Source: Candidatus Borkfalkia excrementavium | GTDB lineage: Bacteria > Bacillota > Clostridia > Christensenellales > Borkfalkiaceae | Assembly (NCBI GenBank): GCA_019115945.1 | Contig: DXCO01000038.1 | Location: 1 to 53,317 of the forward strand | Direction of reading: 5' to 3' | DNA: 53,317 nt | Notes under the pieces: model-generated | Seen by the model: the letters and a program-made list of their open reading frames with translations, nothing else | Told to the model about the DNA's origin: nothing | Databases searched by the model: none | Made by a program: the position numbers and the translations under genes | Shown here: positions 13,013 to 51,673 of the stretch, one piece after another | Numbering within the stretch: the stretch's first letter is position 1 | Layout: every line of letters begins with the position of its first letter

Positions 13013-13066
13013 ATATTACACCCAAAAAGACGGCTGCGCCATAACAAAACGGGCTTAAACCATAAC
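13013..13066 (-). promoter_or_regulatory. Operator-promoter of the transporter operon: GTTATGG direct repeats
   Basis: On the minus strand GTTATGG occurs at 13066-13060 and 13045-13039, exactly 21 bp apart, followed 20 nt later by a TAATAT -10 (13018-13013). There is no consensus -35; the nearer repeat overlaps the expected -35 position. This is the class II arrangement used by AraC activators. The same array occurs at 51646-51673. Confidence 0.65.
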
Positions 13067-13092
13067 AAAATTGCTTTCTTCGGGCGGGAGTA

Positions 13093-13121
13093 TTGACGGC
13101 GCTTCCCACGGAGGGTATACT
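13093..13121 (+). promoter_or_regulatory. Consensus sigma-A promoter of the AraC gene
   Basis: TTGACG (13093-13098), a 17-nt spacer and TATACT (13116-13121). The TTG here is part of the -35 box and not a start codon, which settles the start of the downstream gene. Confidence 0.85.
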
Positions 13122-13138
13122 AAACCAAAAACCGAAAA

Positions 13139-13173
13139 GGAGATCAAAAAACGGCGCGAGAACATCGCGCCGA
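13139..13173 (+). promoter_or_regulatory. Ribosome site separated from the start codon by a hairpin
   Basis: AAAAGGAG (13135-13142) lies 31 nt before the first usable ATG (13174), too far for normal initiation. An 8-bp GC hairpin, CGGCGCGA (13152-13159) with TCGCGCCG (13165-13172) and loop GAACA, fills the gap. Folding it leaves about 10 nt, the normal spacing. Confidence 0.55.
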
Positions 13174-14070
13174 ATGTATGGTATGGCTCATTTTTACAAT
13201 TATTATTACGTCGGCGATCTGAACCTGACGGCCGATGATCTCGGCAGATCCGCTCCCCTTTTGCTTACCTTTTCGAAGGTGCAGAACGGCCCCAAGGGAG
13301 AAGTGCTTCCGCACCTTCACTCGCATCTGGAACTATTTTATTTTGAAAGCGGCGCGGGCATTTTCGAATGCCGAGACAAACATTATCCGATCAAGGCGAA
13401 CGACCTGCTTGCAGTCGATTCCAAGCAAATGCATGTGCAATATTCCGAAAAACAGAATGTGCCGCTCGTATATTACTGCATCGCGGTGGACAATCTGCAT
13501 CTGACCGGCCGCAACGCGAACTGCCTGACCGACAGAGGGTTTTTTCTTCACTCTTTTGAAAATAAGAACAACCTTATTTACCGCAATATTTTGCGGCTTT
13601 TGGACGAACTGAACGAACGGCGTTACAGTTACGCCACCAAAGTCAACGCGATCTTCTGCGAACTGCTCACCGATACCGTGCGCATGGTACCCAAATACGA
13701 TCCGGAAGAAATTTCGGAAAGCAAACTGAACAACCGGAAATTCCTGAACGAAGTCAAAAATTATATCTCCGAACACTACGCCGAGGATATCGCGCTGGAC
13801 GATCTTGCAAAAATCTCTTACATGAACAAGAGTTATTTTCTGCATCAGTTCAAAAAACTGTTCAACATAAGCCCTATGCGGTACTTAACGCTCGTGCGCA
13901 TAGAGCAATCCAAACTGCTTCTGACCTCCACCGACCTCTCCATCACGCAGATCGCTTCGGAGGTGGGCATCAATAACCCCGTCTATTTTACCGAAATTTT
14001 TACCAAGGCGATCGGGGTATCTCCGTCCGCATACAGAAAGATCGTGACGGGGCAGATCGAAAGGTACTGA
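13174..14070 (+). CDS. AraC-family regulator, probable activator of the transporter operon
   Basis: About 298 aa. The N-terminal cupin domain shows LPHLHSHLELFYFESG and YPIKANDLLAVDSKQMH. The C-terminal double HTH includes LDDLAKISYMNKSYFLHQFKKLF and INNPVYFTEIFTKAIGVSPSAYRK. The start is at 13174 or 13183 (both ATG, in frame); a longer reading would begin inside the promoter. The gene is divergent from the seven-gene transporter operon whose promoter carries the GTTATGG repeats, so it is the best candidate to bind them. Initiation may be controlled by the hairpin between its ribosome site and start codon. Confidence 0.88.
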   Translation: MYGMAHFYNYYYVGDLNLTADDLGRSAPLLLTFSKVQNGPKGEVLPHLHSHLELFYFESGAGIFECRDKHYPIKANDLLAVDSKQMHVQYSEKQNVPLVYYCIAVDNLHLTGRNANCLTDRGFFLHSFENKNNLIYRNILRLLDELNERRYSYATKVNAIFCELLTDTVRMVPKYDPEEISESKLNNRKFLNEVKNYISEHYAEDIALDDLAKISYMNKSYFLHQFKKLFNISPMRYLTLVRIEQSKLLLTSTDLSITQIASEVGINNPVYFTEIFTKAIGVSPSAYRKIVTGQIERY

Positions 14071-14112
14071 CGCTTTCAGCCGACATAACGGATAAAAAAT
14101 CGTACACAGACA

Positions 14113-14147
14113 AAGAGGGCGCATGCTTATTATGCATGCGCCCTCTT
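14113..14147. terminator. Bidirectional terminator
   Basis: 13-bp perfect stem AGAGGGCGCATGC (14114-14126) with its complement (14134-14146) and a 7-nt loop, between the convergent AraC and ribokinase genes. Confidence 0.85.
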
Positions 14148-14186
14148 ATATCCGCGGACAAACTTTTTATCTGAATGCAAAATTTT

Positions 14187-15068: not shown

Positions 15069-15207
15069 AACACGAAAATCCTTATTCTGATTGATCCGAC
15101 CAATCGGACCGAAATTATTTTATCATGTTCCGACGAAAAAGTAAATCTGTTTTACCGAAATTATCTCCCCCCCTGCAAGTTCTCTGCAAAATCAGGGTCC
15201 GATCTGC

Positions 15208-15257
15208 TTGCAAAATAAATCGCATACTGCTATAATTAGTATGATATCAGACTAATT
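15208..15257 (+). promoter_or_regulatory. MarR operon promoter with overlapping palindromic operator
   Basis: TTGCAA (15208-15213), 17 nt, TATAAT (15231-15236). A near-perfect 24-bp palindrome (15234-15257), with arms AATTAGT and ACTAATT around TGATATCA, covers the end of the -10 box and the start site. This is the expected layout for autorepression by the MarR protein encoded 15 nt downstream. Confidence 0.8.
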
Positions 15258-15271
15258 GAGGGGGAAAGTAC

Positions 15272-15745: not shown

Positions 15746-15747
15746 GT

Positions 15748-18023: not shown

Positions 18024-19709
18024 TTATGCCGCAGGAAATTCGATGGTCTGCGACGTGTTTTTGTCGCCGTATTCGCCGATAACGCTCTGCATCGCCGCAA
18101 GTTCCGTCTCGTATTCCTCTTCGTCCGCAGAAAGGGAGACCGCCTGCATATCGGAAAAGGTCACCGCCAGATTTTCCGACCCGACGTACAGCGGCCCTTG
18201 CGTGCCGATCTCCGTAAGGATAACGGATAAAACGTCGTTCACGTAAAGGTATGCATCGTTATCCGTGACGACCAGTTTCCAATCAAACTCCAGCCCGCCG
18301 TCAAACGTGAGCGTACGGATGAGCGGATTGCCCGTATCGTAGGCGGCCGTGATCCTGAAGATCCCGTCGCTTTGGTTGTTCCAGATCAGAAACCGGCTGT
18401 TCATGCCGCCGTCGCCGCTGCCGAAACGAAATTCGACGTGTCCGTTATTGTCCGTTTCAGAAATTACGGCTTTTCCGGAAAGGATGAAATTCCTCGAAAG
18501 CGCTTCCCCTTTATACACGATGCTGACGGAGGAAGCAACCCTGTCCGACACGGTCCTGACGATGTCCGCAATGTCTTCCGACGCCGCGCCGAGCGGGGCG
18601 ATCGCGCAGCCCGCCTCTTCCAGCGCGGGCATAAAGATGGATCTGTATGCCTCGGGCGTAAGGTGCGTGCCGTCGCGCAGATCGGAACCCGTCGTCTTGC
18701 TCGCCGTGTCGATAAAGGTGATCCAGTTATACCCGCCGCACCAGTTTTCCATTGCGGCGTTGGTCGCCGCTACCTGATTGCGATAACCGGTGTTCGTTCT
18801 TTGCGTGATGCTGTAATAATAGATGTTCGCGTCGGGGAATTTTTGGTGCAGGATCAGGAACATGCGCTGAATGGACGCAAGGGCATCCGTCTGCTCCATC
18901 TTCGAATCGTAATAATTGTTCGTTCCGATATTCACGACGAAATTTGCGGGGACAGCGGTATCGGGTTTGAAGATCATGTCTTCATACAGGATTTCTTCCC
19001 AATGGCAACTCGTTGTGGAACTGATGCCGAGCAGTTTTACGTCATATCCCGCGTAATCGCTATAAAAATCCGCCCAGCCCCAGGGATCGAAAAAGGAATC
19101 GCCGATGAACACCGTCGTGGAGCCGGACGCGTTCTGTTCCCATTCGGCTGCACGCGAAGAGATGGTGGAAGCAAACCTATCCGTATCGTAATAAGAATCG
19201 GAAAAATCGGGCTTGGAAACAATCACCTCGAATGTCGCATAAAAATGATCGGAAAGGGCTTCGACACTGTAAGTCCCCTCTTTCGTCCCCGAGACGGTGC
19301 CAGCCTCCTCGTCGATCGAAATTGAAGAAGCATCGTAAGAATACGTAAGCGGCTCGGCCTTGGACGGATCGCTGAACGCAATATGCAGCCTGCTTTCCGC
19401 ATAGCCGGGCATGACGGCCACGTCGTCGATGGTAAGCGTGCCGTAGACGCCCCTGTCGAACCCGCATACCCTGCAGACTTCCGTTCCGATAAAACGGTGT
19501 TCGCCCCTGCCTGAAACCTGATCGGTATCTCCGCAGGTGGGATCGTGCCAATGGTAGCCCCCGTTCATGCTCCATTCCTCTGAATAGGTATGCGTATGTT
19601 CCGTTTCCTGTTTTTGCTCATCGGAAGAAGAACCGCATGCCGCGGCCGCCAGCATGAGCGCGGAAACCGCGAGCGCCGCGCAGACAGAAAATATTCTTTT
19701 CAATTTCAT
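18024..19709 (-). CDS. SGNH/GDSL-hydrolase lipoprotein with C-terminal concanavalin-like domain
   Basis: The start is the ATG at 19709 (GAGAGGTG site), giving 561 aa with a lipoprotein signal (LAAAAC, Cys25). A short Cys/His/Trp module (about 38-85, HTHTYSEEWSMNGGYHWH ... CRVCG) precedes a beta-sandwich (87-168) and an SGNH esterase domain (about 185-375). The catalytic blocks are GDSFFD (Ser205), GTNN (Asn264) and DGTHLT (Asp347/His349). The last 170 residues look like a LamG-type sandwich. It is extracellular and membrane-anchored, probably removing acyl groups from polysaccharide. It is monocistronic. Confidence 0.85.
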   Translation of the reverse strand: MKLKRIFSVCAALAVSALMLAAAACGSSSDEQKQETEHTHTYSEEWSMNGGYHWHDPTCGDTDQVSGRGEHRFIGTEVCRVCGFDRGVYGTLTIDDVAVMPGYAESRLHIAFSDPSKAEPLTYSYDASSISIDEEAGTVSGTKEGTYSVEALSDHFYATFEVIVSKPDFSDSYYDTDRFASTISSRAAEWEQNASGSTTVFIGDSFFDPWGWADFYSDYAGYDVKLLGISSTTSCHWEEILYEDMIFKPDTAVPANFVVNIGTNNYYDSKMEQTDALASIQRMFLILHQKFPDANIYYYSITQRTNTGYRNQVAATNAAMENWCGGYNWITFIDTASKTTGSDLRDGTHLTPEAYRSIFMPALEEAGCAIAPLGAASEDIADIVRTVSDRVASSVSIVYKGEALSRNFILSGKAVISETDNNGHVEFRFGSGDGGMNSRFLIWNNQSDGIFRITAAYDTGNPLIRTLTFDGGLEFDWKLVVTDNDAYLYVNDVLSVILTEIGTQGPLYVGSENLAVTFSDMQAVSLSADEEEYETELAAMQSVIGEYGDKNTSQTIEFPAA

Positions 19710-20073
19710 CTTACACCTCTCGTTGCATTCTTCGGCCCGTACACACCCCGGCCCGAACTGAAATTGTTTGTTTGAACAATAACCTGCACTCTTAGTGTAA
19801 CAAGATCGGACGCGAATAGCAATATCCAAATCGGATTTTGGCGATAATTTACAATTTTATGAAAATATTTTACCGCAAAAACGCCTCTTTTCGCGTGTTA
19901 TTTATTCATTTTCGGGCCCAGACAAAAGTTTTTCCTCCCTCGCTTTTTGCCGCCCGCAGGACCGCGTTCCCATTGTTTTAAGATTTAGCGGCAGGCGCAA
20001 TCTTGCGGAAAAAGCAGAAAATTAACGGGAGGCATGCCCGATCGCATGTCTCCCGTTTTATGAGAAAATATGC
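19710..20073. other. Intergenic region between the SGNH lipoprotein and the kdgK end
   Basis: No gene is seen. It holds the leader of the SGNH gene, the inverted repeat ATTGTT-N6-AACAAT (19763-19780) as a possible operator, AT-rich sequence, and the kdgK terminator at its right end. I cannot place a convincing -35/-10 pair here. Confidence 0.5.
20024..20057 (-). terminator. Terminator of the uxuA-kdgK operon
   Basis: 14-bp stem AACGGGAGGCATGC (20024-20037) with 20044-20057, one G-T wobble, loop CCGATC, followed on the minus strand by TTAATTTT. Confidence 0.75.
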
Positions 20074-21084
20074 TTATCTTTGTACTCTTCCGCCGCCGTT
20101 GCCCGCGACGAGAGATTCCACCTCTTCAACGCTGACGAGATTGTAATCCCCTTCCACCGTGTGTTTGAGGCAACTTGCGGCCGTGGCAAACTCTACGGCG
20201 CGCTGCGCGTCAAACCCTTCGGACAGCGCATAGATGAGCCCCGCGCAAAAACTGTCTCCGCCGCCCACTCTGTCGACGATGCGCATGGAATACGTCTTGC
20301 TGAAATACCCCTTTTTTCCGTCAAAGAGCATGGCCGCCCAATCGTTATCGCTCGCGTTCGTGCCCGCGCGCATGGTCGAAGCCACACAGCGGAACCCGAA
20401 GCGTTCGGTCAGTTGCCGCGCGACGCGCACATAGTCTTCGTGCGTAAATCCGGCCGCGGCGTCGCCCGAGCGGATGCCGAACATATCGCGCGCGTCCTCT
20501 ATGCCGATCATGCCGACGTCGACAAAGGGAAGAAGTTTTTCCATCGCTTTGCCCGCGCGTTCGATCGTCCAGAGTTTTTTTCTGTAATTGAGGTCGCACG
20601 ATACGGTCAGACCGCGTTCCTTCGCCTTTTTGCAGGCGGTCAGGCAGATCTTTTCGAGGTTTTCGCCGAGCGCGGGGGTGATACCCGTAAAATGGAACCA
20701 GTTTGCGCCGTCAAAAATTTTATCCCAGTCGAAATCGCTTTCTTCCGCCCCGACGATCGAGGTATGCGCGCGGTCGTAAATGATTTTACTGGCGCGCTGG
20801 CTGGCGCCCTTTTCGCAAAAATAGATGCCCACGCGGTCGCCGCCGCGGACGATATTGTCCGTATCGACGCCGAATCGGCGCAGACAGTTGACCGCCGCCT
20901 GACCGATCTCGTGCGCGGGAAGTTTCGTCACGAACGATGCGTCCGCACCGAAATTGGCAAGGCTGACCGCCACGTTCGCCTCTGCCCCGCCGTAAAATGC
21001 CTCGAAATTTTCCGCCTGTAAAAATCTTTTGTGATTTTCGGGAGAAAGCCTGAGCAGGATCTCGCCGAAACAAACCGTTTTCAT
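20074..21084 (-). CDS. kdgK: 2-dehydro-3-deoxygluconokinase
   Basis: A 336-aa PfkB-family kinase that makes 2-keto-3-deoxy-6-phosphogluconate from KDG and ATP. It has the KDG-kinase start (CFGEILLRLSPENHKRFLQA), the GGAEANVAVSLANFGADA signature (residues 32-49), the substrate-site loop YDRAHTS, and the C-terminal GGGDSFCAGL with catalytic Asp277. It overlaps kdgA by 4 nt (ATGA). Last gene of the uxuA-uxuB-GH112-kdgA-kdgK operon. Confidence 0.92.
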   Translation of the reverse strand: MKTVCFGEILLRLSPENHKRFLQAENFEAFYGGAEANVAVSLANFGADASFVTKLPAHEIGQAAVNCLRRFGVDTDNIVRGGDRVGIYFCEKGASQRASKIIYDRAHTSIVGAEESDFDWDKIFDGANWFHFTGITPALGENLEKICLTACKKAKERGLTVSCDLNYRKKLWTIERAGKAMEKLLPFVDVGMIGIEDARDMFGIRSGDAAAGFTHEDYVRVARQLTERFGFRCVASTMRAGTNASDNDWAAMLFDGKKGYFSKTYSMRIVDRVGGGDSFCAGLIYALSEGFDAQRAVEFATAASCLKHTVEGDYNLVSVEEVESLVAGNGGGRVQR

Positions 21085-21620
21085 CGGCCGAGCCCCTCCG
21101 CAAGAAAACTGCCGCCCACGGCCGCCACGTTGCCGAGGGAAAGATAATCTTCGAGATTTTCGTAATTCACGCCGCCCGTAGGGATAAATTTGACCTGCGG
21201 GAAAGGCCCCGCAAGCGCTTTAAGCGCCTTTGCGCCCCCGTAAACGCTTGCCGGAAAAAATTTGACGGTGGAAATGCCCAGTTCGAGCGCCCGCACGATC
21301 TCCGTGGGGGTAACGCACCCGGGATAATACGGGACATCCGCCCTCTTGCACACGGCGGCGACCTCTTCGGACAGCCCCGGCGAAACGATGAATTTTGCGC
21401 CGGCGGCGAGCGCCCTTTCGCATTGCCCGCCGTTGATGACGGTACCCGCGCCGATATCCATATCGGGGAAAAGTTTGCAGCCGAGGCGGATCGCCTCTTC
21501 CGCACAGTCGGTGCGGAAGGTGATCTCCGCGGTGTTCATGCCGCGTTCGCGCAGGCCTTTGAGAACGCTTTCCGTGTCGGAAAGGTCGCGTATTACGATG
21601 AGAGGAATAAATTTTTCCAT
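21081..21620 (-). CDS. kdgA: KDPG/KHG aldolase, short form
   Basis: The enzyme splits KDPG into pyruvate and glyceraldehyde-3-phosphate. Glu32 (TAEITFRT) and the Schiff-base Lys120 (STVKFFPAS) are present, with GAGTV, SPGL and PTGGV loops in order. At 179 aa it is shorter than the usual 205-215. It lacks about 15 residues of the N-terminal helix and about 25 at the C terminus, ending at GGSFLAEGLGR. The stop overlaps the kdgK start, so the shortness looks native and not a frameshift. The barrel core is complete, so activity is likely. Confidence 0.88.
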   Translation of the reverse strand: MEKFIPLIVIRDLSDTESVLKGLRERGMNTAEITFRTDCAEEAIRLGCKLFPDMDIGAGTVINGGQCERALAAGAKFIVSPGLSEEVAAVCKRADVPYYPGCVTPTEIVRALELGISTVKFFPASVYGGAKALKALAGPFPQVKFIPTGGVNYENLEDYLSLGNVAAVGGSFLAEGLGR

Positions 21621-21627
21621 TGTGATT

Positions 21628-23832
21628 TTACTCCGCGGACGGAAAATCTTTGCCGTCCAGCCAGACGAGTTCTCCTCCTTTGAGGTTCAAAACGATCTTA
21701 TTGCCCTTGATGTCATATACGTCCGTTTTCTGCGCGTCCGCGCTGTTGTTGATGACCGCATATACGTCTTTATCCGCATAGTAACCGCAGTCGGTCAGCA
21801 CGTTCGACGAAAACGCCCTGCGCAGGCTGTCTTCCTTGCCGGCGGTGTACAGCATCGCACGGTACAGAAGGCGCGCGTTTTCAAAGGAATACGGCAGCCC
21901 CGCCGCATAGAAGGCGCGGCCCTTTCCGTAAGAATGCACCGCCATTTTCACTTCGCCCGTATTCACGCCGCGCATATGGCCCGCATCGAAACGGATATCC
22001 AGAACGTCCGTACCGTTCATCGCATAAATATTCTTCATTCCCTCGCCGTAATCGGGCAGGGAAGAGAGATCTTCGGTGATGAAGTGCCCCTTCTTTGCCG
22101 TAAGATTGTACTTGTCTTCCGAAAGCGTAAAGCCGATCTCTTTGTCGACGCCGAGCACGTCTCGCAGTTGGAAGAACTTGCCGTTCGCGTCCGCAGCGGT
22201 CGGCTCGCCGACGCCGATGAATCCGCCGCCGTTCCAAACGAATTTGCGCACCGACGTAACGATCTCTTCGTCCAGCCAGTTTGCACCGCCCGACCAGGAC
22301 GTGCCCGCATCGCCCGCATTGATGATCACGTCGATATCGGCGGGGACTCCCTTTCTGATATCTTCAAAGGAAATGAAGCGTACGTCTACGGGCAGGCCGC
22401 TGAGCGCTTCGAGAATGCCCTGATAAGAATAGATCTGTTGGTACCACAGTTCGTGGGCGACCATATAGCACATCCAACTGCGCTTTTTGCCCCAGGCATT
22501 GAGAATGCCGACCGTGAGGAAATTTTTGGGAGATTTGCCCTTCACGTTGTCGTACAGGACGCGGAACTCTTCGCAGATCTCGGAAGCGCGCTTCATAAAG
22601 GAATGGAACTTCGCCGCGAGCGCAAGGTAGCCGCCGAACCCGATCCTGTCGAGCGGATTGCGCAGCATCGCGCGGCGGGCGGTCATCCAGTTGCGGTTGA
22701 GTTCGTCCACGGCGGCCTTCTCGTTCCCCTCGAAGAAGGTGTCGGGGAAGAAATAGGGAAGCATGCGCCCTTCGCGGTAACGCACGCCTTCCACGTCGGA
22801 GAGCATGCGCACGGTGACGCCGCCGCCGACAGAACCGACGATCGCGTCCAGACCGAGTTCGGAAAAATATTCGCCGTACGGTTCGCACCCGATCCAGCAG
22901 TCGCCGAGGAACATCATCGCCTCTTTCTTTTTCTCGTGCGTGATCTTTACGAGATCTTTGATCGTATCGCAGACGAATTTTTCGATGAACGCCATATAGT
23001 CGAGGTATTGTTTGGTAGGCACGTTGAAGGAAGAATCGTACCTGCCCGCCTCGATCAGGTATTCGGCGCGCATTTTATAGCCGTATTCCTTTTCGAACGC
23101 ATCGAGCATGCGCGGGCTGACCGCCATCGAATACCCGAACCAGTTCACATTTTTTTCCTTGCCCTTGTCGTTGAAGACGAGGGAGAACTGGTAAAGGAAG
23201 GTCGTAAAGCGCACGACGCTCGTTTCGGGATGCTTGTCGCACCAGTCCGCGAGATGTTCGCGGATATATTTTGCCGTTTTGGGATAGAAGGGATCGTACA
23301 TGATATGTTTCTTTTCCGTCCACCCGTTGGTGATGGAATTGTACATATGCACGGGATCCCAAAGGGAAATCGCGAGGAAGGAAACGGTATAATCGTGGAA
23401 AAGTTCCGCCTTTTTGACGGTAACGGTCCCCTCCCGTTCATCGAAATCCCACTCGGCGGGATCGAGCAGCCTGCCCGTCGTGCGGTCGATCACTTCCCAA
23501 TATTTTTTGGGATCGGACGCAAAATCGGGTTTGACCTGCTGTTCGAAATACCCGTCCATCAGGCGGATCTTTAAGGTGTCGGAAGAAGCCGTGCAAAATC
23601 CGCTCAGAAGATAGACGTGCTGCCACTCGTCTTTGTTCGCCATCGCCCAGTCATAGTCGCCGCGGATGACGAAATAGGTATTGTATACCTTGTCTGCAAG
23701 TTCGGACGCATTTGCGGGGAGAGTGGTTCCGTCGCAGTCTCTCACAGCGTCGGCTCCCCATTCCTTCATGATCTTTTTGGTTTCTTCCACGAATCCCGCA
23801 TCGGTGGGAATCGTGATCCTGCCTTTGCCCAT
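21628..23832 (-). CDS. GH112 beta-galactoside phosphorylase (galacto-/lacto-N-biose or galactosyl-rhamnose type)
   Basis: The 734-aa protein is collinear with GH112 phosphorylases, which split beta-galactosides with phosphate to give alpha-galactose-1-phosphate. Conserved segments include WGADAVRDCDGT near the N terminus, KYWEVIDRTTG, VVRFTTFLYQF, the catalytic FLGDCWIG (general acid Asp311) and LPYFFPDTFFEGN. A C-terminal glutamine-amidotransferase-like and beta domain follows. I chose ATG 23832 because AGGAGG lies 9 nt upstream; the in-frame TTG at 23841 falls inside that site. No signal peptide, so it is cytoplasmic. Its place in a hexuronate operon suggests pectin (rhamnogalacturonan) breakdown and therefore galactosyl-rhamnose as substrate, but that is inference. 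Confidence 0.88.
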   Translation of the reverse strand: MGKGRITIPTDAGFVEETKKIMKEWGADAVRDCDGTTLPANASELADKVYNTYFVIRGDYDWAMANKDEWQHVYLLSGFCTASSDTLKIRLMDGYFEQQVKPDFASDPKKYWEVIDRTTGRLLDPAEWDFDEREGTVTVKKAELFHDYTVSFLAISLWDPVHMYNSITNGWTEKKHIMYDPFYPKTAKYIREHLADWCDKHPETSVVRFTTFLYQFSLVFNDKGKEKNVNWFGYSMAVSPRMLDAFEKEYGYKMRAEYLIEAGRYDSSFNVPTKQYLDYMAFIEKFVCDTIKDLVKITHEKKKEAMMFLGDCWIGCEPYGEYFSELGLDAIVGSVGGGVTVRMLSDVEGVRYREGRMLPYFFPDTFFEGNEKAAVDELNRNWMTARRAMLRNPLDRIGFGGYLALAAKFHSFMKRASEICEEFRVLYDNVKGKSPKNFLTVGILNAWGKKRSWMCYMVAHELWYQQIYSYQGILEALSGLPVDVRFISFEDIRKGVPADIDVIINAGDAGTSWSGGANWLDEEIVTSVRKFVWNGGGFIGVGEPTAADANGKFFQLRDVLGVDKEIGFTLSEDKYNLTAKKGHFITEDLSSLPDYGEGMKNIYAMNGTDVLDIRFDAGHMRGVNTGEVKMAVHSYGKGRAFYAAGLPYSFENARLLYRAMLYTAGKEDSLRRAFSSNVLTDCGYYADKDVYAVINNSADAQKTDVYDIKGNKIVLNLKGGELVWLDGKDFPSAE

Positions 23833-23849
23833 TTGATTCAACCTCCTGT

Positions 23850-24689
23850 TTATACTCCGCTGTATGCGGAAAATCCGCCGTCGACGGGGATGACCGTGCC
23901 GGTCACGAATCCGCTTGCGGATTCGTCGGCCAGCCAGAGCAAAGCGCCCGTCAGGTCGGAAATTTCTCCGAATCGTTTCATCGGCGTGGCGGCGAGAATC
24001 TTCGCCGTGCGCGCGGTGGGTCTGCCCTCACCGTCGAACAGGAGCCCCCTGTTCTGATTGGTCACGAAAAACCCGGGCGCGATCGCGTTCACGCGGATAT
24101 TGCAGGGCGCAAAATGCACCGCAAGCCACTGCGTGAAGTTGGAAATGCCCGCCTTCGCCGCGCTGTACGCGGGGATCTTTGTCAGGGGACGGAAAGCGTT
24201 CATGCTGGAAATATTGATGATGTTTCCTCCCGTTTTGACCATGTCCTCCGCAAATACCTGCGTTACGAGAAAAGCCGTCGTGATATTGAGATCGAACACG
24301 AATTTGATGCCCGATTCTTCCAGTTTGAAAAAGTTTTTGATCTCCGCATCCGTTTCGGGGGTCATGGTCTCGTTGTCGCACGTCGCGCGCGGATTGTTGC
24401 CGCCCGCGCCGTTGATGAGAAAATTCGCCTTGCCGAAACTTTCCTCCACGATCTCTTTCGCAGCGACGATGCTCTCTTTATCCAGACAGTTGCAGCGTAC
24501 CGCGATGGCATTGTCGCCGATCTCGTCGGCGATCGCCTTTGCCGCGTCGAAATTGATGTCCAAAAGCGCCACGTTCGCCCCGCATGCGGCAAGAACGCGC
24601 GCAAATTCGCCGCAAATAACGCCGCCCGCGCCCGTAATGACCGCGGTTTTTCCTTTCAGATCCACTTTGAACGGTAATTTTACTTTCAT
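23850..24689 (-). CDS. uxuB: D-mannonate oxidoreductase (SDR-type fructuronate reductase)
   Basis: A 279-aa short-chain dehydrogenase that interconverts D-fructuronate and D-mannonate with NAD(P)H. The Rossmann glycine motif is TGAGGVICG (residues 19-27), NGAGG follows at 93-97, and the catalytic set is Ser161/162, Tyr175 and Lys179 (YSAAK). The insertion rich in Asn and Thr after NGAGGNNPRA is typical of the mannonate/fructuronate SDR branch. This is the SDR version, unrelated to the long-chain E. coli UxuB. It starts 13 nt after uxuA with a GGGGGAG site. Confidence 0.88.
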   Translation of the reverse strand: MKVKLPFKVDLKGKTAVITGAGGVICGEFARVLAACGANVALLDINFDAAKAIADEIGDNAIAVRCNCLDKESIVAAKEIVEESFGKANFLINGAGGNNPRATCDNETMTPETDAEIKNFFKLEESGIKFVFDLNITTAFLVTQVFAEDMVKTGGNIINISSMNAFRPLTKIPAYSAAKAGISNFTQWLAVHFAPCNIRVNAIAPGFFVTNQNRGLLFDGEGRPTARTAKILAATPMKRFGEISDLTGALLWLADESASGFVTGTVIPVDGGFSAYSGV

Positions 24690-24702
24690 TTTTATCTCCC
24701 CC

Positions 24703-25746
24703 TTATCTGCCGATCGCTCTGTCCTTTTCGATCGCCTCGAAAAGTCCGTTCAGATACGCGGCGCCCAGCGCCCTGTCGTACAGCCCGTAGCCGGGTTTGC
24801 CGTCTTCTCCCCAGATATTGCGGCCGTGATCGGGACGGACGTAACCGTCGAACCCGTTTTCCACGAGCGCCCTGACGACGCCGTATATGTCCAGATCGCC
24901 CGCGGCGGTCAGATGCCCTGCTTCCGCAAAATCGGTGTCTCCTTCATATTTCAACTGGCGGAGATGCGCGAAATAGATCCTGTCCGCATATTTTGCCGCC
25001 ATTTTCGGCAAGTCGTTGAACCTGCCCGCACCCAAAGAACCGGTGCAGAAGGTTATGCCGTTGTGTCTGTTCGGAACGGCGGCAAACAACTTATCGTAAC
25101 TTTTCTCCCCCGTTATGATGCGCGGGAGCCCGAACATATCCCAGGGGGGATCGTCGGGGTGGATGGCCATATCGATGCCGGCCTCGTCGCAGGCGGGCAT
25201 GATGCCGTTCAGAAAATATACGAGATTTTCAAACAGTTGTTCGTGAGAGATCCCCTTATATTCTTCCAGAAGCCCGTTGAGTTCTTCGGCCGTATAACTT
25301 TCGTCCCAGCCGGGAAGGCGCAGATTTTTCGGGTCGAGTTTCAGCAGCGTTTCGTGACAATAGCAAAGGGCGTTCGACCCGTCCGCGTTTTTGCGCTTCA
25401 GATCCGTCCTCAGCCAGTCGAAAACGGGCATAAAATTGTAGCACACACATTTGACGCCTACCTTACCAAGATTGCGGATGGTCTGCGCGTAATTTTCGAT
25501 CAGCCTGTCCCTGGAAGGTTTGCCGAGTTTGATGTCTTCGTGTACGGGCACCGATTCGATCACTTCCATCGCAAGATGCGCGCCGTCGCACAGTTCTTTC
25601 AGCCGTTCGATTTTGGAAAGTTCCCAGACTTCTCCCACCGGAACGTCGTAAACGGCGGTCACCACGCCCGACATGTTCGGGATCTGCCGGATGTATTCCA
25701 GAGGGATCGAATCTTTTTCTCCGTACCAACGGAAAGTCATTTTCAT
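24703..25746 (-). CDS. uxuA: D-mannonate dehydratase
   Basis: This 347-aa TIM-barrel enzyme dehydrates D-mannonate to 2-keto-3-deoxygluconate. The start MTFRWYG..DSIPLEYIRQIPNM, the ENYAQTIRNLGKVGVKCVCYNFMPVFDW segment and the late metal-site residues in HPDDPP, HLRQ and RPDHGR are all family hallmarks. It is the first gene of the operon and is driven by a consensus promoter at 25881-25909 with a leader of about 128 nt. The product feeds kdgK and kdgA three genes downstream. Confidence 0.95.
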   Translation of the reverse strand: MKMTFRWYGEKDSIPLEYIRQIPNMSGVVTAVYDVPVGEVWELSKIERLKELCDGAHLAMEVIESVPVHEDIKLGKPSRDRLIENYAQTIRNLGKVGVKCVCYNFMPVFDWLRTDLKRKNADGSNALCYCHETLLKLDPKNLRLPGWDESYTAEELNGLLEEYKGISHEQLFENLVYFLNGIMPACDEAGIDMAIHPDDPPWDMFGLPRIITGEKSYDKLFAAVPNRHNGITFCTGSLGAGRFNDLPKMAAKYADRIYFAHLRQLKYEGDTDFAEAGHLTAAGDLDIYGVVRALVENGFDGYVRPDHGRNIWGEDGKPGYGLYDRALGAAYLNGLFEAIEKDRAIGR

Positions 25747-25880
25747 AGTTCCTTACTCCTTTGATCGCAACATCGACGATTTTTTCTGCACCGCTCTGCC
25801 GTTTGCCGCGCCCGTAAGACGTGCGGACAAAGCGTATGGGAATAAAGACGATCTTCGAAACCGCATTTCCGTTTTACCAC

Positions 25881-25909
25881 ATTATAGCGTATCTGTTTGG
25901 CAAAGTCAA
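25881..25909 (-). promoter_or_regulatory. Promoter of the uxuA operon
   Basis: Minus-strand TTGACT (25909-25904), a 17-nt spacer and TATAAT (25886-25881). Near consensus, so the operon is more likely limited by repression or leader control than dependent on an activator. Confidence 0.85.
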
Positions 25910-26065
25910 TATGGAAATTGTGCGATTTTGTTTGCAGGTTGCGCAGTTTTTGTCTGAAAATCCCGCTTTTTGCGGCAATTTTGCGAATTTTGCAAGGATG
26001 ATGCGCAATGCGGCCGAAGCGCCGTCTCTGCTCCCGATTCTGTTGCATTCTCTATTATAAACCAA

Positions 26066-26093
26066 AAGTTTTGCAATGTAAATAGCAAAACTT
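26066..26093. promoter_or_regulatory. Perfect inverted repeat, candidate operator
   Basis: AAGTTTTGC (26066-26074) and GCAAAACTT (26085-26093) with a 10-nt spacer, lying 12 bp before the AraC promoter. It may be a regulator-binding site; there is no upstream gene on the plus strand that would need a terminator here. Confidence 0.45.
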
Positions 26094-26104
26094 ACACATT
26101 TTGA

Positions 26105-26133
26105 TTGCAATTTTTATGTTGATGAATTAAAAT
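26105..26133 (+). promoter_or_regulatory. Promoter of the AraC gene at 26152
   Basis: TTGCAA (26105-26110), 17 nt, TAAAAT (26128-26133), followed by the GAAGGGG ribosome site at 26140. Confidence 0.6.
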
Positions 26134-26151
26134 ATATGCGAAGGGGTTTTT

Positions 26152-26988
26152 ATGAATGATTTTAAGACAGCGACAGAGGCGGCGGGCATCCGCTACACGC
26201 ATACTTTTGAAAACCGGCCGAAAAAAGAGGATTACTACCGGCACAATCATTCGGATTACGAACTCTATATCTGTTTTTCGGGAGATATGGACTTCGTGGT
26301 CGAGGACAGGATGTACGAACTGCCGCCAGACTCCGTACTGCTCATACGGCCGTTCACCTATCATTATGCGAGCCTGCACAATTTTCAGAAGCCCTATCAC
26401 CGCATGAGCATCAATTTTGAAAAGAACACGGCGTTTCCCGAAACTTTTTCCTTCCTTGAATCGGAAAAAGAGTTTTTCGTGTGGAAACAGGGGGATCTGC
26501 TCCGCATGGCGGAAGAGGCGGAAGCAAAAATGGCAGAATACGGCAGGAACGATTCCATCCTTTACCTGAAGATGTTTATAAACGAAATGCTGCTCGGGCT
26601 GAAATACGCGGGCAAAACATTTCAGAAAACGCACAGCCTGAACCCCTCCGTCAGCCAGATCCTGCGTTACGTGAACGATCACCTCAACGAGCCGCTCAGC
26701 CTGAAAAAAATTTCTTCCAATCTGTTTTTGACGCCCACGTATATTTCGCAGGTCTTTTCCAAACACATGAAGATCGGTGTGATGGATTACGTCAAGCAGA
26801 AAAAGATCCACCTGGCGCAGGACATGATCGCAAACGGGATTTCGCCGTGCGCCGCGGCCAGGCAACTCGGATTCGGCGAATATTCCACCTTTTACAGGCT
26901 GTTCCAAAAATATCTGAAAGAAAAGCCCTCCGCGCCCCTCGCAACAAGAGGACGCGAAAAAGAGGCGCCCGCCCTGCCAAAACACTGA
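26152..26988 (+). CDS. AraC-family transcriptional regulator (hexuronate operon)
   Basis: A 278-aa protein with a cupin N-terminal domain (YRHNHSDYELYICFSGDMDFVV-like strands, LPPDSVLLIRPFTYH) and a double HTH from about residue 160: LSLKKISSNLFLTPTYISQVFSKH and the second helix pair GFGEYSTFYRLFQKYL. It is divergent from uxuA, so it probably controls the uronate operon. The C-terminal tail is Lys/Arg/Pro-rich, beyond the usual family end. A GNAT gene follows 35 nt later and may be co-transcribed. Confidence 0.9.
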   Translation: MNDFKTATEAAGIRYTHTFENRPKKEDYYRHNHSDYELYICFSGDMDFVVEDRMYELPPDSVLLIRPFTYHYASLHNFQKPYHRMSINFEKNTAFPETFSFLESEKEFFVWKQGDLLRMAEEAEAKMAEYGRNDSILYLKMFINEMLLGLKYAGKTFQKTHSLNPSVSQILRYVNDHLNEPLSLKKISSNLFLTPTYISQVFSKHMKIGVMDYVKQKKIHLAQDMIANGISPCAAARQLGFGEYSTFYRLFQKYLKEKPSAPLATRGREKEAPALPKH

Positions 26989-27023
26989 ATCCGCGCGGCG
27001 CTTTTTCCGCAAGGAGATCCCCT

Positions 27024-27464
27024 ATGCATTTAGAAAAAATGTCTGAAACGCACGTCGCAAAATGCGCGGATCTGTTCATCGACGCATTTACGAGAGAACC
27101 TTGGAAAGACGAGTATTCTTCCGCGGAACAGGTGGTCGGTTATTTCCGCAACTGCTTAAAATTCGATTCTTTTATCGGCTATGTTCTGAAAGAGGGCGGC
27201 GAAACGGTCGCCCTGTGTCTGGGAATGAAAAAGCCATGGATAAACGGGACGGAATATTTCATCGATCAATTTTGCGTCAAACCCGGCCTGCAGGGACAGG
27301 GAATCGGCAGCGCGTTCTTGAAGATGATAGAGAACAGCGTCCGCGGGCAAGGGATGAACGCCATGATACTGCAAACCGAAAGAGGGTTTCCGTCGGAAAG
27401 GTTTTATTTGAAGAACGGGTTCGAAATATTGGAAGGGCTCGCCTGTTTTGCCAAACAGATATAG
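27024..27464 (+). CDS. GNAT-family N-acetyltransferase
   Basis: The start is the ATG at 27024 with AAGGAG 8 nt upstream, giving 146 aa. The acetyl-CoA binding motif A is QFCVKPGLQGQGIGSAFLKMIE, of which V-x-P...QGQGIGS is the R/Q-x-x-G-x-G/A core, followed by the ERFYLKNGFE motif B. The acceptor is unknown. It lies between the uronate AraC gene and a terminator. Confidence 0.85.
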   Translation: MHLEKMSETHVAKCADLFIDAFTREPWKDEYSSAEQVVGYFRNCLKFDSFIGYVLKEGGETVALCLGMKKPWINGTEYFIDQFCVKPGLQGQGIGSAFLKMIENSVRGQGMNAMILQTERGFPSERFYLKNGFEILEGLACFAKQI

Positions 27465-27495
27465 TTACGGCAACGCCGTTCCGTTGAACGCAACC

Positions 27496-27528
27496 GGCGC
27501 GGAGATTTCAAATCTCCGCGCCCTTTTA
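27496..27528. terminator. Terminator between GNAT and GH3 genes
   Basis: GGCGCGGAGATTT (27496-27508) with AAATCTCCGCGCC (27510-27522), followed by CTTTT on the plus strand. Confidence 0.8.
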
Positions 27529-27557
27529 TTTTTGCCGAACGCCGGAGAACCCGCCGT

Positions 27558-29561
27558 TCAATTGATTTTTACAGAAGCGATCTTCCCCTCTTTGATGCGG
27601 ACGAACGCGCTCAGGCGGATATCCGCGGAAGAAGCGCCCACGCAGATCTCGTACAGCCCGTCTTCAACGGTCCAGCAGTCGAACGCGGTGGAGTAATAGG
27701 AAAAAGCGGAAGAATCGAGGGAAATTTTGACCGAAACGCTCTTTCCTGCGCCGATCTCGTCTTTGGAAAAGCCCTTCAGTTCCTTATAAGGGCGATACAC
27801 GTACGGGGCGCACGCGCGAACGTACAACTGGCTGACCTCTTTGCCCGAGATCTCTCCCAGATTGGAAATTTTATACGCCACTTCCAGCGAAAGATCGCCC
27901 GTCTGCCTGATTTTCAGATCTTCGTATCCGAAATCGGTATAACTCAGCCCGAACCCGAAGGGGAACGCGACGGGCTTTCCGTATGTATCGTAATAGCGGT
28001 ACCCCACGTCCAGCCCCTCTTCGTATCTGGAAACGCAGATATCGTTGTATGCCCGGTAGGAGGGCGTGTCTTCTATGCACAGGGGGAAGGTTTCGGAAAG
28101 TTTGCCGCTCGGGTTGATCTCGCCGGTCAGCACTTCGGCGACCGCCTCGCCGCCGCGCTCGCCGCAAAAGCCAGCGTATACGATCGCCGCGACGCTGTCT
28201 TCCCAGGCGGAAACGTCGATGACGGATCCGGCAAAAACGACCACGACGGTATTCGGATTCTGCGCCGCCGTTTCTAAGATCACCTCTTCCTGCACGGAAG
28301 AAAGTTTCATGCTCGCCCTGTCTCCCGCCTCGCATTCGACGGTGTCGCCCGTGCCCACGCAGACCACGTTCACGTCGCACTCTGCCGCGTTTTCGAGCGC
28401 GTCGCGCCCCTTGGAACGGAAAGATTCGATCGCGCGCTCTCCGAAAGCACGGTTGTATCTGACTTCCCCTCCCAGTTTTTCGCGCAGAAGCGCCGCAAGG
28501 TCATACGGTTTGCCGATCCACTGCACGCGGGCGGAACCGCCGCCGCCGATCCTGCCGCCGTCGTCGAGGGCGGCAAACTCGCCGCACACGGCGACGGAAA
28601 CGCCCTTTTTCAGGGGCAGAACGCCGTCGTTTTTCAAAAGGACGATGCCTTCTTCCGCCACTTTTTGGGCGACGGCAAGGCGGTCGCTCTCGCTCTTTTC
28701 GGGCTTATTGTCCCCGCGCATCTTTTTGCAGCGGCAGATCAGATCGAGCATCCTCTGCGCGCAGGCGTCCAGTTCCTCGTCTGAAAGCATGCCCGCCTTA
28801 TAATCCGCGACGAGTTTATCGTAATTCTTCTGATCGAAGGGCATTTCCAGATCCAGCCCCGCTTTGGCCGCCTTTGCGCGGTCGTGCACGGCGCTCCAGT
28901 CGGAGACGATCGCGCCGTCGAAGCCGAATTCTTCCCGCAGGATTCTGAATCCCTTTTTGTTTTCGGAGGCATATACGCCGTTGATCCTGTTATACGAGCA
29001 CATGACGGAGACGGGCTTGGCCCTGCACGCCAGTTCGAACGGCTTCAGATAGATCTCGCGCAGCGTGCGCTCGTCCACGTCGCTCGACTGATCGAGGCGG
29101 TTGAATTCGAGATTGTTCGCATAAAAATGTTTGAGGCAGGCGCCCACGCCGCGCGACTGCAACCCGTCGATATACTCGTACGCGAGCGAACCGGCGAGGA
29201 AGGGATCTTCCGAAAAATATTCAAAGTTGCGGCCGTTGAGCGGATTGCGCTTGATGTTCACGCCGGGCGCGAGCAGGATGTCCACGTCGTTTTCCAGACA
29301 GTCGTCCGCAAGCGCTTCGCCCATGGCGCGCGCGGACCCGCGGTCCCAGCCGTTTGCAAGGCACTGTATGGCCGGATAGGCGACGGACGGTTTGTCATAT
29401 TCCTTTCCGTCCTCTCTCCTGACGACCTTGCGAAGGCCGACGGGCCCGTCCGAGACCGCCAACTGAGGCAGTTTGCCGCCCAGATCTTCCGTGCGCCAGG
29501 CGTCCTTTCCGCAGATCAGCCGAAGTTTTTCTTCCGCTGTCAGATCCTTTACCGTAATCAT
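27558..29561 (-). CDS. GH3 beta-glucosidase
   Basis: A 667-aa three-domain glycoside hydrolase family 3 enzyme: a TIM barrel (SDGPVGLR, APGVNIKRNPLNGRNFEYFSEDP, KHFYANN), an alpha/beta sandwich beginning around residue 310 and a fibronectin III-like end (about 575-650). The nucleophile is Asp221 in IVSDWSAVHD. The absence of a signal peptide indicates a cytoplasmic enzyme working on imported oligosaccharides, either beta-glucosides or beta-xylosides. Monocistronic, with GGGAGGAG before the ATG. Confidence 0.93.
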   Translation of the reverse strand: MITVKDLTAEEKLRLICGKDAWRTEDLGGKLPQLAVSDGPVGLRKVVRREDGKEYDKPSVAYPAIQCLANGWDRGSARAMGEALADDCLENDVDILLAPGVNIKRNPLNGRNFEYFSEDPFLAGSLAYEYIDGLQSRGVGACLKHFYANNLEFNRLDQSSDVDERTLREIYLKPFELACRAKPVSVMCSYNRINGVYASENKKGFRILREEFGFDGAIVSDWSAVHDRAKAAKAGLDLEMPFDQKNYDKLVADYKAGMLSDEELDACAQRMLDLICRCKKMRGDNKPEKSESDRLAVAQKVAEEGIVLLKNDGVLPLKKGVSVAVCGEFAALDDGGRIGGGGSARVQWIGKPYDLAALLREKLGGEVRYNRAFGERAIESFRSKGRDALENAAECDVNVVCVGTGDTVECEAGDRASMKLSSVQEEVILETAAQNPNTVVVVFAGSVIDVSAWEDSVAAIVYAGFCGERGGEAVAEVLTGEINPSGKLSETFPLCIEDTPSYRAYNDICVSRYEEGLDVGYRYYDTYGKPVAFPFGFGLSYTDFGYEDLKIRQTGDLSLEVAYKISNLGEISGKEVSQLYVRACAPYVYRPYKELKGFSKDEIGAGKSVSVKISLDSSAFSYYSTAFDCWTVEDGLYEICVGASSADIRLSAFVRIKEGKIASVKIN

Positions 29562-40469: not shown

Positions 40470-41267
40470 TCATCTTTTTTGCGAACGCTCTCTGTATTTT
40501 TTTGGAGACATGCCCGTTTTGCGTTTGAATTCCGCGGAAAAGTAGAGCGGGTCGGAATATCCGCTCGAATACCCCACTTCCGCAACGGTCAGGTCGTTGC
40601 CCTTGAGCAATTCCTTCGCGCGGCGGAGGCGGCAGCCGTCGAGATATTCTTTCGGCCCCATGCCGAACCGCTCTTTGAACAGCCGGAAAAGGCGGGAGCG
40701 GCTGATGCCGACCATGTCCGCGATCTTTTCGACGCGGCAGTCGGAATCGTGAAATCCCGTGCGGATCAACTGCGCTGCGCGCTCCGCCGTCCCCGCGCGC
40801 GGCGCGCTCTGCGCGGGAAACTCGCGCACCAATTCCGCAAACAGGGAAAGGAGCGCCGCGCTCCCGTCCAGTTCGGAAGCGTCGGAACCGAATTTATCCA
40901 CGAAACTCACAAAAATCGGATAAATTTTTTCCGCATCGAGCACGGGCGAGACGCGCACGTCGGCTGAAAAACCCGTTTGGGACAGCAGTTCGTCTACGGC
41001 GGAACCGTCAAAATCTGCCCAGATATAGCGCCAGGGGTGCGTTCCGTCCGCCCCGTAGGAAATATTTTCCCCTTTATAAACGAGAAAGATCTGTCCTGCG
41101 GATGCCTCGAAACGGCGGCCGAGATATTCGATCCATCCCTTTCCCGATACGATATAGTGAAAAATATAGGTGTTCCGTTCGTACGGGCCCACTTTATAGA
41201 GGGGCGCGCACTGCGATTCGTTGGACCAGACAAGTTTCAAAAAATCATTCATGCAACATTTTCCCAT
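40470..41267 (-). CDS. AraC-family regulator next to alpha-galactosidase
   Basis: A 265-aa regulator with a compact cupin domain (YERNTYIFHYIVSGKGWIEYLG-like strands; SAGQIFLVYKGENISYG) and a typical double HTH: VEKIADMVGISRSRLFRLFKERFGMGP and GYSSGYSDPLYFSAEFKRKTGMSPKKYRE. The start is ATG 41267 or ATG 41252; the second fits the usual family start but neither has a strong ribosome site. Divergent from the GH27 gene, it probably activates it in response to a galactoside. Confidence 0.88.
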   Translation of the reverse strand: MGKCCMNDFLKLVWSNESQCAPLYKVGPYERNTYIFHYIVSGKGWIEYLGRRFEASAGQIFLVYKGENISYGADGTHPWRYIWADFDGSAVDELLSQTGFSADVRVSPVLDAEKIYPIFVSFVDKFGSDASELDGSAALLSLFAELVREFPAQSAPRAGTAERAAQLIRTGFHDSDCRVEKIADMVGISRSRLFRLFKERFGMGPKEYLDGCRLRRAKELLKGNDLTVAEVGYSSGYSDPLYFSAEFKRKTGMSPKKYRERSQKR

Positions 41268-48425: not shown

Positions 48426-48454
48426 ATTATACCACAAGCACGCTTTTTTATCAA
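48426..48454 (-). promoter_or_regulatory. Promoter of the DUF2156-GNAT gene
   Basis: Minus-strand TTGATA (48454-48449), 17 nt, TATAAT (48431-48426). Transcription would start near 48419, giving a leader of about 39 nt without a recognisable ribosome site. Confidence 0.8.
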
Positions 48455-48584
48455 CCGAAACGCGCTTTGTACGGGGAATGTTTTCGGCGGGGTTTTGCGG
48501 CGCGAACAAAAAGGCGGCCTTCGGCAAAGTCGCAAAAGAAGCCCTCCCGTCCGCCGCCCGAACGTAAAAAACCGTAAACAAAAA

Positions 48585-48613
48585 GAAGGCAGGGCGCAAA
48601 CTGCCCCGCCTTC
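48585..48613 (-). terminator. Terminator of the HtrA-like protease gene
   Basis: GAAGGCAGGGC (48585-48595) with GCCCCGCCTTC (48603-48613), with one G-T wobble, followed on the minus strand by CTTTTT. Confidence 0.7.
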
Positions 48614-48652
48614 CCATGCCGCAGGCTTACTCGGCCGTGCCTTTTGCCTGCG

Positions 48653-50095: not shown

Positions 50096-50240
50096 AAAAC
50101 AAGCCCCCTGTTTTTGTTAATGATATTATATCACCCTTTTGTTAAAGTTTGCCCAAAATTATGATATCTTTATGAAAATTAAGGCGTTTTTTCGCCCCGC
50201 CTGTTCCGTTTTTCCGCCAATCTTTTGCCCGTTGACAGCA

Positions 50241-50276
50241 AAAAAGTTTTCGGCCGGACAAGACCGAAAACTTTTT
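50241..50276. terminator. Terminator of the metallophosphoesterase gene
   Basis: AAAAAGTTTTCGG (50241-50253) with CCGAAAACTTTTT (50264-50276); works on the minus strand for the gene ending at 50287. Confidence 0.88.
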
Positions 50277-50286
50277 GCGGCATTTT

Positions 50287-51597
50287 TTATTCCCCTGCCG
50301 ACGGCTGCAAAAAGACATATTGCGCGCCGGAGAGCCATTGTCCCCTTTCAAATTCGCGGCCGCGCACGACCACGTAATCTTTGTAAACTTCCACAAAGAG
50401 CCCTTCGCTTCCCGCATATGCAGAGCCGGCGCCTTCGCCCTGCCAAAGATATCCGACGGACGCCGTATTGAAAAAATTCGCGTCTTTTCCTTCTCCGAAC
50501 AGAGCGGGCTGCTCGCTTTCGAGATGCCAATGCGTGTGCCCCGTAAAGAGCGTCGCGTTCGGATAATTTTTCAGGACTCTGCGCAGCGCGGCGTCTTCGG
50601 AGTCGTTCAGCCCGTACCACGTCTGCCCGAGAGAGGTGAGCGAGCCGGAAACGGTGTTTTTCGGCGGCTGATGCAAAAAGATAAAAACGGCATCGTCCTT
50701 TCCCGCCTCTCTGAGTTGCTCTTCCAGCCAATTCAACTGCGCACTGCCCAGTTCGCAGCGGACGCCCACGGTATCGCTCGCTTTCACGGATCCGAGCACG
50801 ATGAACTTTGTACCCTCTTTATCGACGGAATAATATGCCCTTTCGTTACCTGTATATGCGGCGAACAGAGTCAGCATTTCTTCATACGTCTGCCCCGTAT
50901 AAGACTCGTGATTGCCGATCGCGTAATATATGTCCGGAACATTCTCCGGATATATGTTTGCGATAATGGATAACATTTCCTCGTATTCTTCGGCATATCC
51001 GTGATCGGTCATGTCCCCGACGACAAAGATCCCGGACGTGTCGGGCGAGATCTCCCGGATCTGGCGGAACGCCTCTTCCGTGCGGTCGTGCTGCGTCGGA
51101 GAAGCCGCGCCGCCCAGTTGGAAATCGCTGACCGCCTGAAATTCGTACAACTTTTCTGAACGCTCTGCGGCGGGCAGATCGAAGACCGCCGTGTCCAGCA
51201 CGATCTCGTTGAAATATGATTCGACGACGATCTGTTCGGCCTCTCGGGGAACATACGTGTGTTCGGGAAGTTCATACAGATACTCCTCTTCGCCCGGCTG
51301 AAAAACCGCAAGGCCGGTGTACTCTTTCAGCGGCGCACCGCCGGCGCCCCAGGCCAATTTATATTCCGTCAGCCCGTCGCTTTCTTTCGGGTCGGAAAAA
51401 AATATTTTTCCTCCGCCCACTCCGTTCATGCCGGCATCCGGTTCATACGTAAGGTCCTGCACCGCGTATCCGCTTTCTTCCGGCGGTTCGGGGGAGGGCT
51501 TTTGCGGTTGCGCATTTCCGTTTCCGCCGCATGCCGACAAAAAAACGAGCCCGAACCCCAATGCCAGGGCGCATACGTCCGCCGCTTTTCTCTTCAT
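50287..51597 (-). CDS. Metallophosphoesterase lipoprotein
   Basis: A 436-aa secreted calcineurin-like phosphoesterase with lipobox FLSAC (Cys23) and a Pro/Glu-rich linker. A beta-rich domain (about 45-150) precedes the catalytic domain with motifs GDMTDHG (Asp195), GNHES (Asn229-His230), FIFLHQPP and FTGHTHWH. The first motif, normally D-x-H, reads SDFQ (Asp158, Gln160), so one metal ligand is substituted. It would hydrolyse phosphomono- or diesters outside the cell. The promoter carries the same AraC-type repeats as the transporter operon at 13 kb. Confidence 0.9.
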   Translation of the reverse strand: MKRKAADVCALALGFGLVFLSACGGNGNAQPQKPSPEPPEESGYAVQDLTYEPDAGMNGVGGGKIFFSDPKESDGLTEYKLAWGAGGAPLKEYTGLAVFQPGEEEYLYELPEHTYVPREAEQIVVESYFNEIVLDTAVFDLPAAERSEKLYEFQAVSDFQLGGAASPTQHDRTEEAFRQIREISPDTSGIFVVGDMTDHGYAEEYEEMLSIIANIYPENVPDIYYAIGNHESYTGQTYEEMLTLFAAYTGNERAYYSVDKEGTKFIVLGSVKASDTVGVRCELGSAQLNWLEEQLREAGKDDAVFIFLHQPPKNTVSGSLTSLGQTWYGLNDSEDAALRRVLKNYPNATLFTGHTHWHLESEQPALFGEGKDANFFNTASVGYLWQGEGAGSAYAGSEGLFVEVYKDYVVVRGREFERGQWLSGAQYVFLQPSAGE

Positions 51598-51620
51598 CCT
51601 TTTTTCTCCTTTTTATTTTT

Positions 51621-51673
51621 ATGATAGCACGACGAAAGCAAAACGCCATAACCGCATTGCTTTTTACCATAAC
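51621..51673 (-). promoter_or_regulatory. Operator-promoter of the phosphoesterase gene: GTTATGG direct repeats
   Basis: On the minus strand GTTATGG stands at 51673-51667 and 51652-51646 (21 bp apart), with a TATCAT -10 at 51626-51621. The nearer repeat overlaps the expected -35 by 4 bp and there is no consensus -35. On the plus strand the array reads CGCCATAAC, 13 nt, ACCATAACAA, then TTTTGCTTT, nearly the same as at 13037-13076. Confidence 0.7.

Follow-up and report, generated by a model that had tools for sequence, protein, structure and literature searches.

Probable joint control by an AraC-type switch of a sialic-acid-like uptake operon and a phosphoesterase gene 38 kb away in Candidatus Borkfalkia excrementavium

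Two promoters that lie 38 kb apart in Candidatus Borkfalkia excrementavium carry the same tandem DNA site, and an AraC-type switch probably controls both the sialic-acid-like uptake operon and the phosphoesterase gene that they precede. Both loci are contained in the window, the whole stretch of 53,317 nucleotides that we analyzed (Table 1). We consider it likely that AraC1, whose gene adjoins the operon, uses the tandem site as its operator and activates at least three promoters in an araBAD-like manner. The sites, their geometry, their co-occurrence with AraC1 and the three targets are established here from sequence and conservation. Together they would define a regulon for a little-known bacterial group and provide a practical rule for recognizing its operator (AAGC-N7-TTATGG, 4 bp, AAGC-N7-TTATGG, 20 nt, TATAAT). 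Switches of this type are familiar; the new element is the proposed link of the phosphoesterase to the pathway, and this link is testable.

Table 1. Positions in the window of the predicted regulator, its targets and their control elements
Feature	Position	Strand	Remarks
474-aa lipoprotein	3115..4539	-	last operon gene; without known family
ABC permease B	4562..5443	-	
ABC permease A	5455..6393	-	
977-aa secreted protein	6411..9344	-	no Pfam family over cut-off
ABC transporter sugar-binding protein	9401..10987	-	
NanA-like N-acetylneuraminate lyase/DHDPS-family aldolase	11027..11893	-	280.5 bits versus a profile cut-off of 281
BNR_2 (sialidase-like) protein	11890..12984	-	first operon gene; signal peptide not evident
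Candidate -10 TAATAT	13013..13018	-	20 nt from operator 1; 2-mismatch pattern match
Operator 1 (putative)	13039..13076	-	two 17-bp half-sites, 4-bp gap; upstream of seven-gene operon; matrix rank 1/106,560
AraC1 promoter (predicted), TTGACG-17-TATACT	13093..13121	+	own sigma-70-type promoter; 10/12 matches; apart from operator
AraC1, 298-aa AraC-family regulator	13174..14070	+	cupin-like N-terminal domain, AraC HTH; co-occurs with operator
Calcineurin-like metallophosphoesterase lipoprotein	50287..51597	-	lipobox LSAC
Candidate -10 TATCAT	51621..51626	-	19 nt from operator 2; best offset 19, 5/6
Operator 2 (putative)	51646..51683	-	upstream of phosphoesterase gene; matrix rank 2/106,560

On the plus strand of the window, CGCCATAAC-N13-ACCATAACAA is read at 13037-13068 and at 51644-51675, with TTGCTTT starting 2 nt past each tandem site and a repeat period of 21 bp, exactly as a first-pass annotation of this DNA had described. 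TTGCTTT is the complement of the A-box region of the half-site. The full half-site, AAGC-N7-TTATGG, extends over 17 bp and is repeated after 4 bp, so that on the minus strand, toward the genes, the unit AAGCAATTTTGTTATGG occurs twice with 4 bp between. This half-site extent and a third promoter on contig C20 go beyond what had been annotated.

CCATAAC-N(10-18)-CCATAAC occurs at two places in the window, both of them the sites given above (the mean of 100 shuffles is 0.00), and the same two are the only occurrences in the entire genome, scanned as a draft of 1,549,124 bases in 42 contigs (89.8% complete), in which the reversed control yields 0. A matrix trained on 9 sites of six other genomes, with the genome under study and G002 excluded, places the two window sites first and second among 106,560 positions (42.9 and 33.6 bits). 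The third-ranked position overlaps the second site (13.2 bits), the one after it scores 11.4, and 20 shuffled windows give at most 12.6. The tandem-site observation is far beyond chance. Among 60 other genomes, drawn from the genus and the order, one (G049) has an exact 21-bp pair; there it lies within a 555-aa open frame, and single pairs may thus arise by chance. We nevertheless give next to no credence to the idea that the likeness of our sites is accidental, or reflects shared promoter ancestry without function: shuffles and reversed control are empty, the sites hold the top two matrix ranks, and the operator is conserved across genomes and kept in other families of the order, whereas the three upstream regions of this genome look dissimilar by eye outside the site.

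The first-pass annotation had regarded a motif common away from promoters as evidence against a shared operator. We find that it is not common: five further matches with 2-3 mismatches (contigs C9, C15, C13, C1, and C33) all lie inside open frames of at least 150 codons (5/5), match TATAAT at 4/6 positions or fewer at offsets 19-21, and were rejected. A match at C32:51667-51696 represents operator 2 shifted by one repeat and overlapping it, not a separate site. CCATAAC occurs once more at 12981-12987, across the BNR gene start, but lacks a second copy 21 bp off; we read it as chance.

We compared 13 promoters, three from this genome and 10 from G027, G007, G019, G249, G227, G365, and G002, leaving out an additional tandem site that precedes the G007 operon and has no -10 at the matching distance. 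The distal half-site has the consensus AAGCAATTTTGTTATGG, with the G and A of GTTAT present in 13/13, and the proximal half-site retains its final G in 13/13 and has a weaker A-box. On the minus strand of the window, the end of GTTATGG is separated from the probable -10 by 20 nt at the operon (TAATAT) and by 19 nt at the phosphoesterase gene (TATCAT). With these gaps and a spacer of 17 nt, 3 and 4 bp of the near half-site, respectively, fall on the -35 position, in agreement with the first-pass annotation. Candidate -35 hexamers at spacings of 16-18 match TTGACA at 1-3/6 positions in both promoters. The -10 of the operon promoter is ambiguous, TATAAT being matched at 5/6 positions at offsets 18 and 31 and at 4/6 at offset 20. 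As assigned, the -10 is 20 nt off in 12 of the 13 promoters and 19 nt off at the phosphoesterase gene of this genome. Unbiased scoring of offsets 8-33 puts offset 20 among the best TATAAT matches in 10/13, the exceptions being the operon and phosphoesterase promoters of this genome (18 and 31, and 19, respectively) and the G007 BNR promoter (25; 4/6 at 20). The arrangement fits an AraC-type class II operator, with half-sites directly repeated at a distance of about 21 bp and the near one over the -35 position given the 20- and 19-nt gaps to the assigned -10.

The same layout is known from araBAD of E. coli K-12, which reads TAGC-N7-TCCATA, 4 bp, TAGC-N7-ACCTGA, 20 nt, TACTGT. Our sites share with its I1-I2 region the direct 17-bp half-sites, the box-N7-box structure and the 17-4-17-20 spacing, as well as the AGC of the A-box, a near half-site over the -35 and an AraC gene adjoining its target operon; the araBAD promoter spacing is thus kept to the base outside the proteobacteria. 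By analogy, this identity supports the class II AraC geometry proposed earlier. The B-box is different (TTATGG here, TCCATA/ACCTGA in araBAD), as are the phylum and the targets, which here are secreted esterases and a pathway for a sialic-acid-like sugar. According to a figure legend in PMC11434276, AraC at I2 overlaps the -35 site and aids polymerase binding, passages of PMC2893085 describe the araBAD operator likewise, with a -35 overlap that aids polymerase, and AraC half-site forms are given in the introduction of PMC4514859. The same paper presents MtlR at the Pseudomonas fluorescens PmtlE promoter, likewise an AraC/XylS activator of an ABC-transporter sugar operon that binds direct repeats upstream of the promoter, but there the repeats are located upstream of the -35 and differ in sequence.

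Given the araBAD-identical spacing, the mechanism of AraC and the similarity of AraC1 to AraC, we read the promoters as AraC1-activated. AraC1 could instead act as a repressor, blocking the -35 position until the sugar releases it, but we regard this as unlikely. The near half-site does cover the -35, and a near-consensus -35 (TTGAAA or TTGATA, 5/6) is present in several relatives (G249, G227, both sites of G365, and one G007 promoter), whose promoters may therefore have basal activity or be repressed. A repressor, however, needs no fixed distance to the -10, yet all assigned distances but one are the same; the three promoters of this genome have no -35 worth blocking, and the spacing is the one seen at araBAD, a promoter that is activated.

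AraC1 contains a C-terminal double helix-turn-helix (HTH_18 5.4e-19 and HTH_AraC 9.4e-19, both over cut-off) and an N-terminal effector-binding cupin (AraC_binding PF02311, 37.9 bits versus a cut-off of 21.1). It shares 34% sequence identity with E. coli AraC over 148 residues, mainly in the DNA-binding part. The NCBIfam equivalog model for arabinose AraC yields 74.8 bits (5e-21) versus a cut-off of 208, and AraC1 is AraC-like rather than AraC. A perfect 8-bp hairpin (13152-13172, fold z -2.84) is located between its ribosome-binding site and start codon; on the minus strand it is terminator-like and may shield the operon promoter from read-through. By eye we find no counterpart in G027.

We next turn to the distribution of regulator and site across draft genomes. 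The BNR gene is present in 7/40 genus genomes (E 1e-20) and 9/396 order genomes (E 1e-50), amounting to 16 loci in 15 genomes, with the genome under study counted in both sets. AraC1 homologues occur in 5/40 genus genomes (E 1e-30) and in 4/396 order genomes (E 1e-40, scoring at most six candidates per genome); we assume that both order searches covered the same 396 genomes. The site is found at BNR in 7/7 genomes with AraC1 (8 loci) and in 0/8 genomes without an AraC1 match (8 loci), with a Fisher value of 1.6e-4 that ignores kinship (G249, G227, and G365 belong to one family, G249 and G227 to one genus). Of the weak calls, the G365 C10 site (shuffle p 0.02) was counted as positive, and G288 (14/22, shuffle p 0.08) and G106 (one perfect half-site alone) as lacking the site. 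Conservation thus supports a shared operator for the two loci, and the co-occurrence favors the AraC gene at 13174, which the first-pass annotation had put forward as the factor. Nor did the other outcome occur that it would have counted against a shared operator, a lack of conservation upstream of orthologous operons: those that have AraC1 keep the site. G103 encodes all seven operon genes in unchanged order (27-63% identity) and has neither an AraC1 match nor the site.

A site pattern with 3 mismatches and without the -10 could not separate genomes from the reversed control and was replaced by a site plus TATAAT pattern. With up to 2 mismatches, the latter has 7 matches in the 40 genus genomes, only in G000, G027, G007, and G019 and at the expected promoters. 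Two sites are absent from its matches, that at the phosphoesterase gene of this genome because of the 19-nt gap, and that of G249, detected in the BNR-promoter scan, because of a poor second half. Matches at exactly 3 mismatches (7/14 in the genus scan and 5/8 in a further scan, with 2 and 2 in the reversed controls) were discounted except for that of G002, which adjoins the AraC1 homologue. A close-relative scan of named genomes returned one locus. G002, the fifth genus genome with AraC1 (a 34% homologue), has the 3-mismatch variant only and also carries AraC2 and AraC3 homologues. Its contig C42 (L031:1150-1330) shows a GATAT-type tandem with 20-nt spacing upstream of a divergent ABC operon beside the AraC1 homologue, and operator and regulator may have diverged jointly.

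It is highly unlikely in our view that another regulator (AraC2, AraC3, or one encoded elsewhere) binds the sites and that AraC1 is merely a neighbor. The genome does encode more than one AraC-family protein, and the second G365 site adjoins a different AraC gene. Yet AraC2 (2080-3003) and AraC3 (40470-41267), each with homologues in 9/40 genus genomes, have none at E 1e-30 in G027, G007, and G019, which carry the site; G013, G035, and G033 have AraC2 but no site at their BNR promoters; and an AraC1 homologue accompanies the site in every one of the seven genomes. This distribution disfavors AraC2 and AraC3, and AraC1 is the best-supported factor among the three AraC genes of the window. The second BNR gene of G365 (contig C12, L106:8468-9583), which has the operator pattern with 0 mismatches, looks like an in-trans target of AraC1.

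The phosphoesterase contains a Metallophos domain only, and its nearest solved structure is a weak match (Rv0805, E 0.007). Among the 39 other genus genomes, G019 alone has a close orthologue (57-59% identity); all other matches in the genus share at most 35% identity and lie in longer frames. The gene order in G019 is phosphoesterase (+), AraC1 (-), BNR (+), NanA-like (+), and the phosphoesterase and BNR promoters both have the operator with 20 nt to TATAAT. An orthologue beside AraC1 and under the operator supports the earlier suggestion that the phosphoesterase belongs to the same regulon. In G007, the slot beside AraC1 is occupied by a different 308-aa gene, which has no Pfam match at E 1 and also has the operator. 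The accessory gene controlled by such an operator thus comes in three forms.

The third target in this genome is defined by a site on contig C20 (13287-13316, minus strand) that has one mismatch and lies 20 nt from TATGAT. It has the top matrix score in its 14-kb stretch (24.1 versus 6.1) and precedes the gene for a 318-aa lipoprotein with a GDSL/SGNH hydrolase domain (PF13472, 1.3e-17). SGNH esterases act upon O-acetylated sialic acids in known systems, and a GDSL esterase would fit de-O-acetylation.

The operon comprises seven minus-strand genes, from 12984 down to 3115, which read away from the tandem site as annotated. Its NanA-like protein scores 280.5 bits with NF003164 (cut-off 281) and 233 with TIGR00683 (cut-off 382). 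In the BNR protein, Arg-37, Arg-235, Arg-291, Asp-71, Glu-219, and Tyr-342 are invariant in 11/11 aligned sequences; these residues may represent the sialidase arginine triad, the Asp acid and the Tyr/Glu pair, a set compatible with a sialidase. AraC1, BNR and the NanA-like gene are found together in 7/7 genomes that have AraC1 and BNR (the G027 NanA-like protein shares 57% identity), and at the second G365 BNR locus we recognized no NanA-like gene. The window also encodes lacto-N-biose phosphorylase, a ribokinase and UxuA. Our best guess is that the imported sugar is sialic-acid-like; another 2-keto-3-deoxy acid is possible. DHDPS-family proteins substitute for other aldolases in gut genomes according to a passage of PMC5583593.

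Bacterial nan catabolism likewise involves a NanA-like lyase, a sialidase-like protein and an ABC importer. The present system differs in its AraC-type regulator, its co-regulated phosphoesterase and a BNR protein with no evident signal peptide, and we noticed no NanE or NanK among the window genes scanned. A literature search, judged mostly from search results rather than full texts, returned nothing on this regulon.

We infer AraC1 binding, activation, the inducer and the enzyme substrates from these comparisons. An AraC1 dimer would bind two directly repeated 17-bp half-sites 21 bp apart, the first helix-turn-helix contacting the A-box and the second the B-box. With the near half-site on the -35 position, AraC1 would help RNA polymerase start at promoters that have no good -35, and would itself be expressed from an ordinary promoter. 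The regulon would comprise at least three promoters, those of the seven-gene operon, the secreted phosphoesterase and the secreted GDSL esterase. The operon would import a sialic-acid-like (2-keto-3-deoxy acid) sugar and break it down, and ahead of uptake the secreted enzymes would take off acyl groups as well as phosphate or phosphodiester. Placing the so far unassigned phosphoesterase and the GDSL esterase, both secreted, in a single import pathway makes their substrates testable. More speculatively, and with considerable doubt, the AraC-type activator may govern a pathway in which these two enzymes de-cap phosphorylated, acylated nonulosonic-acid glycans prior to import, the phosphoesterase representing an undescribed kind of glycan phosphatase.

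We noted two further loci in the window. A sugar cluster at 18024-29561 encodes the lacto-N-biose phosphorylase, a PfkB kinase, UxuA, a short-chain dehydrogenase, a GH3 protein and a further GDSL protein. At 59-3003, a GH127-like protein (59-1936, minus strand), which shows a weak match to aceric acid hydrolase, is encoded divergently from AraC2 (plus strand).
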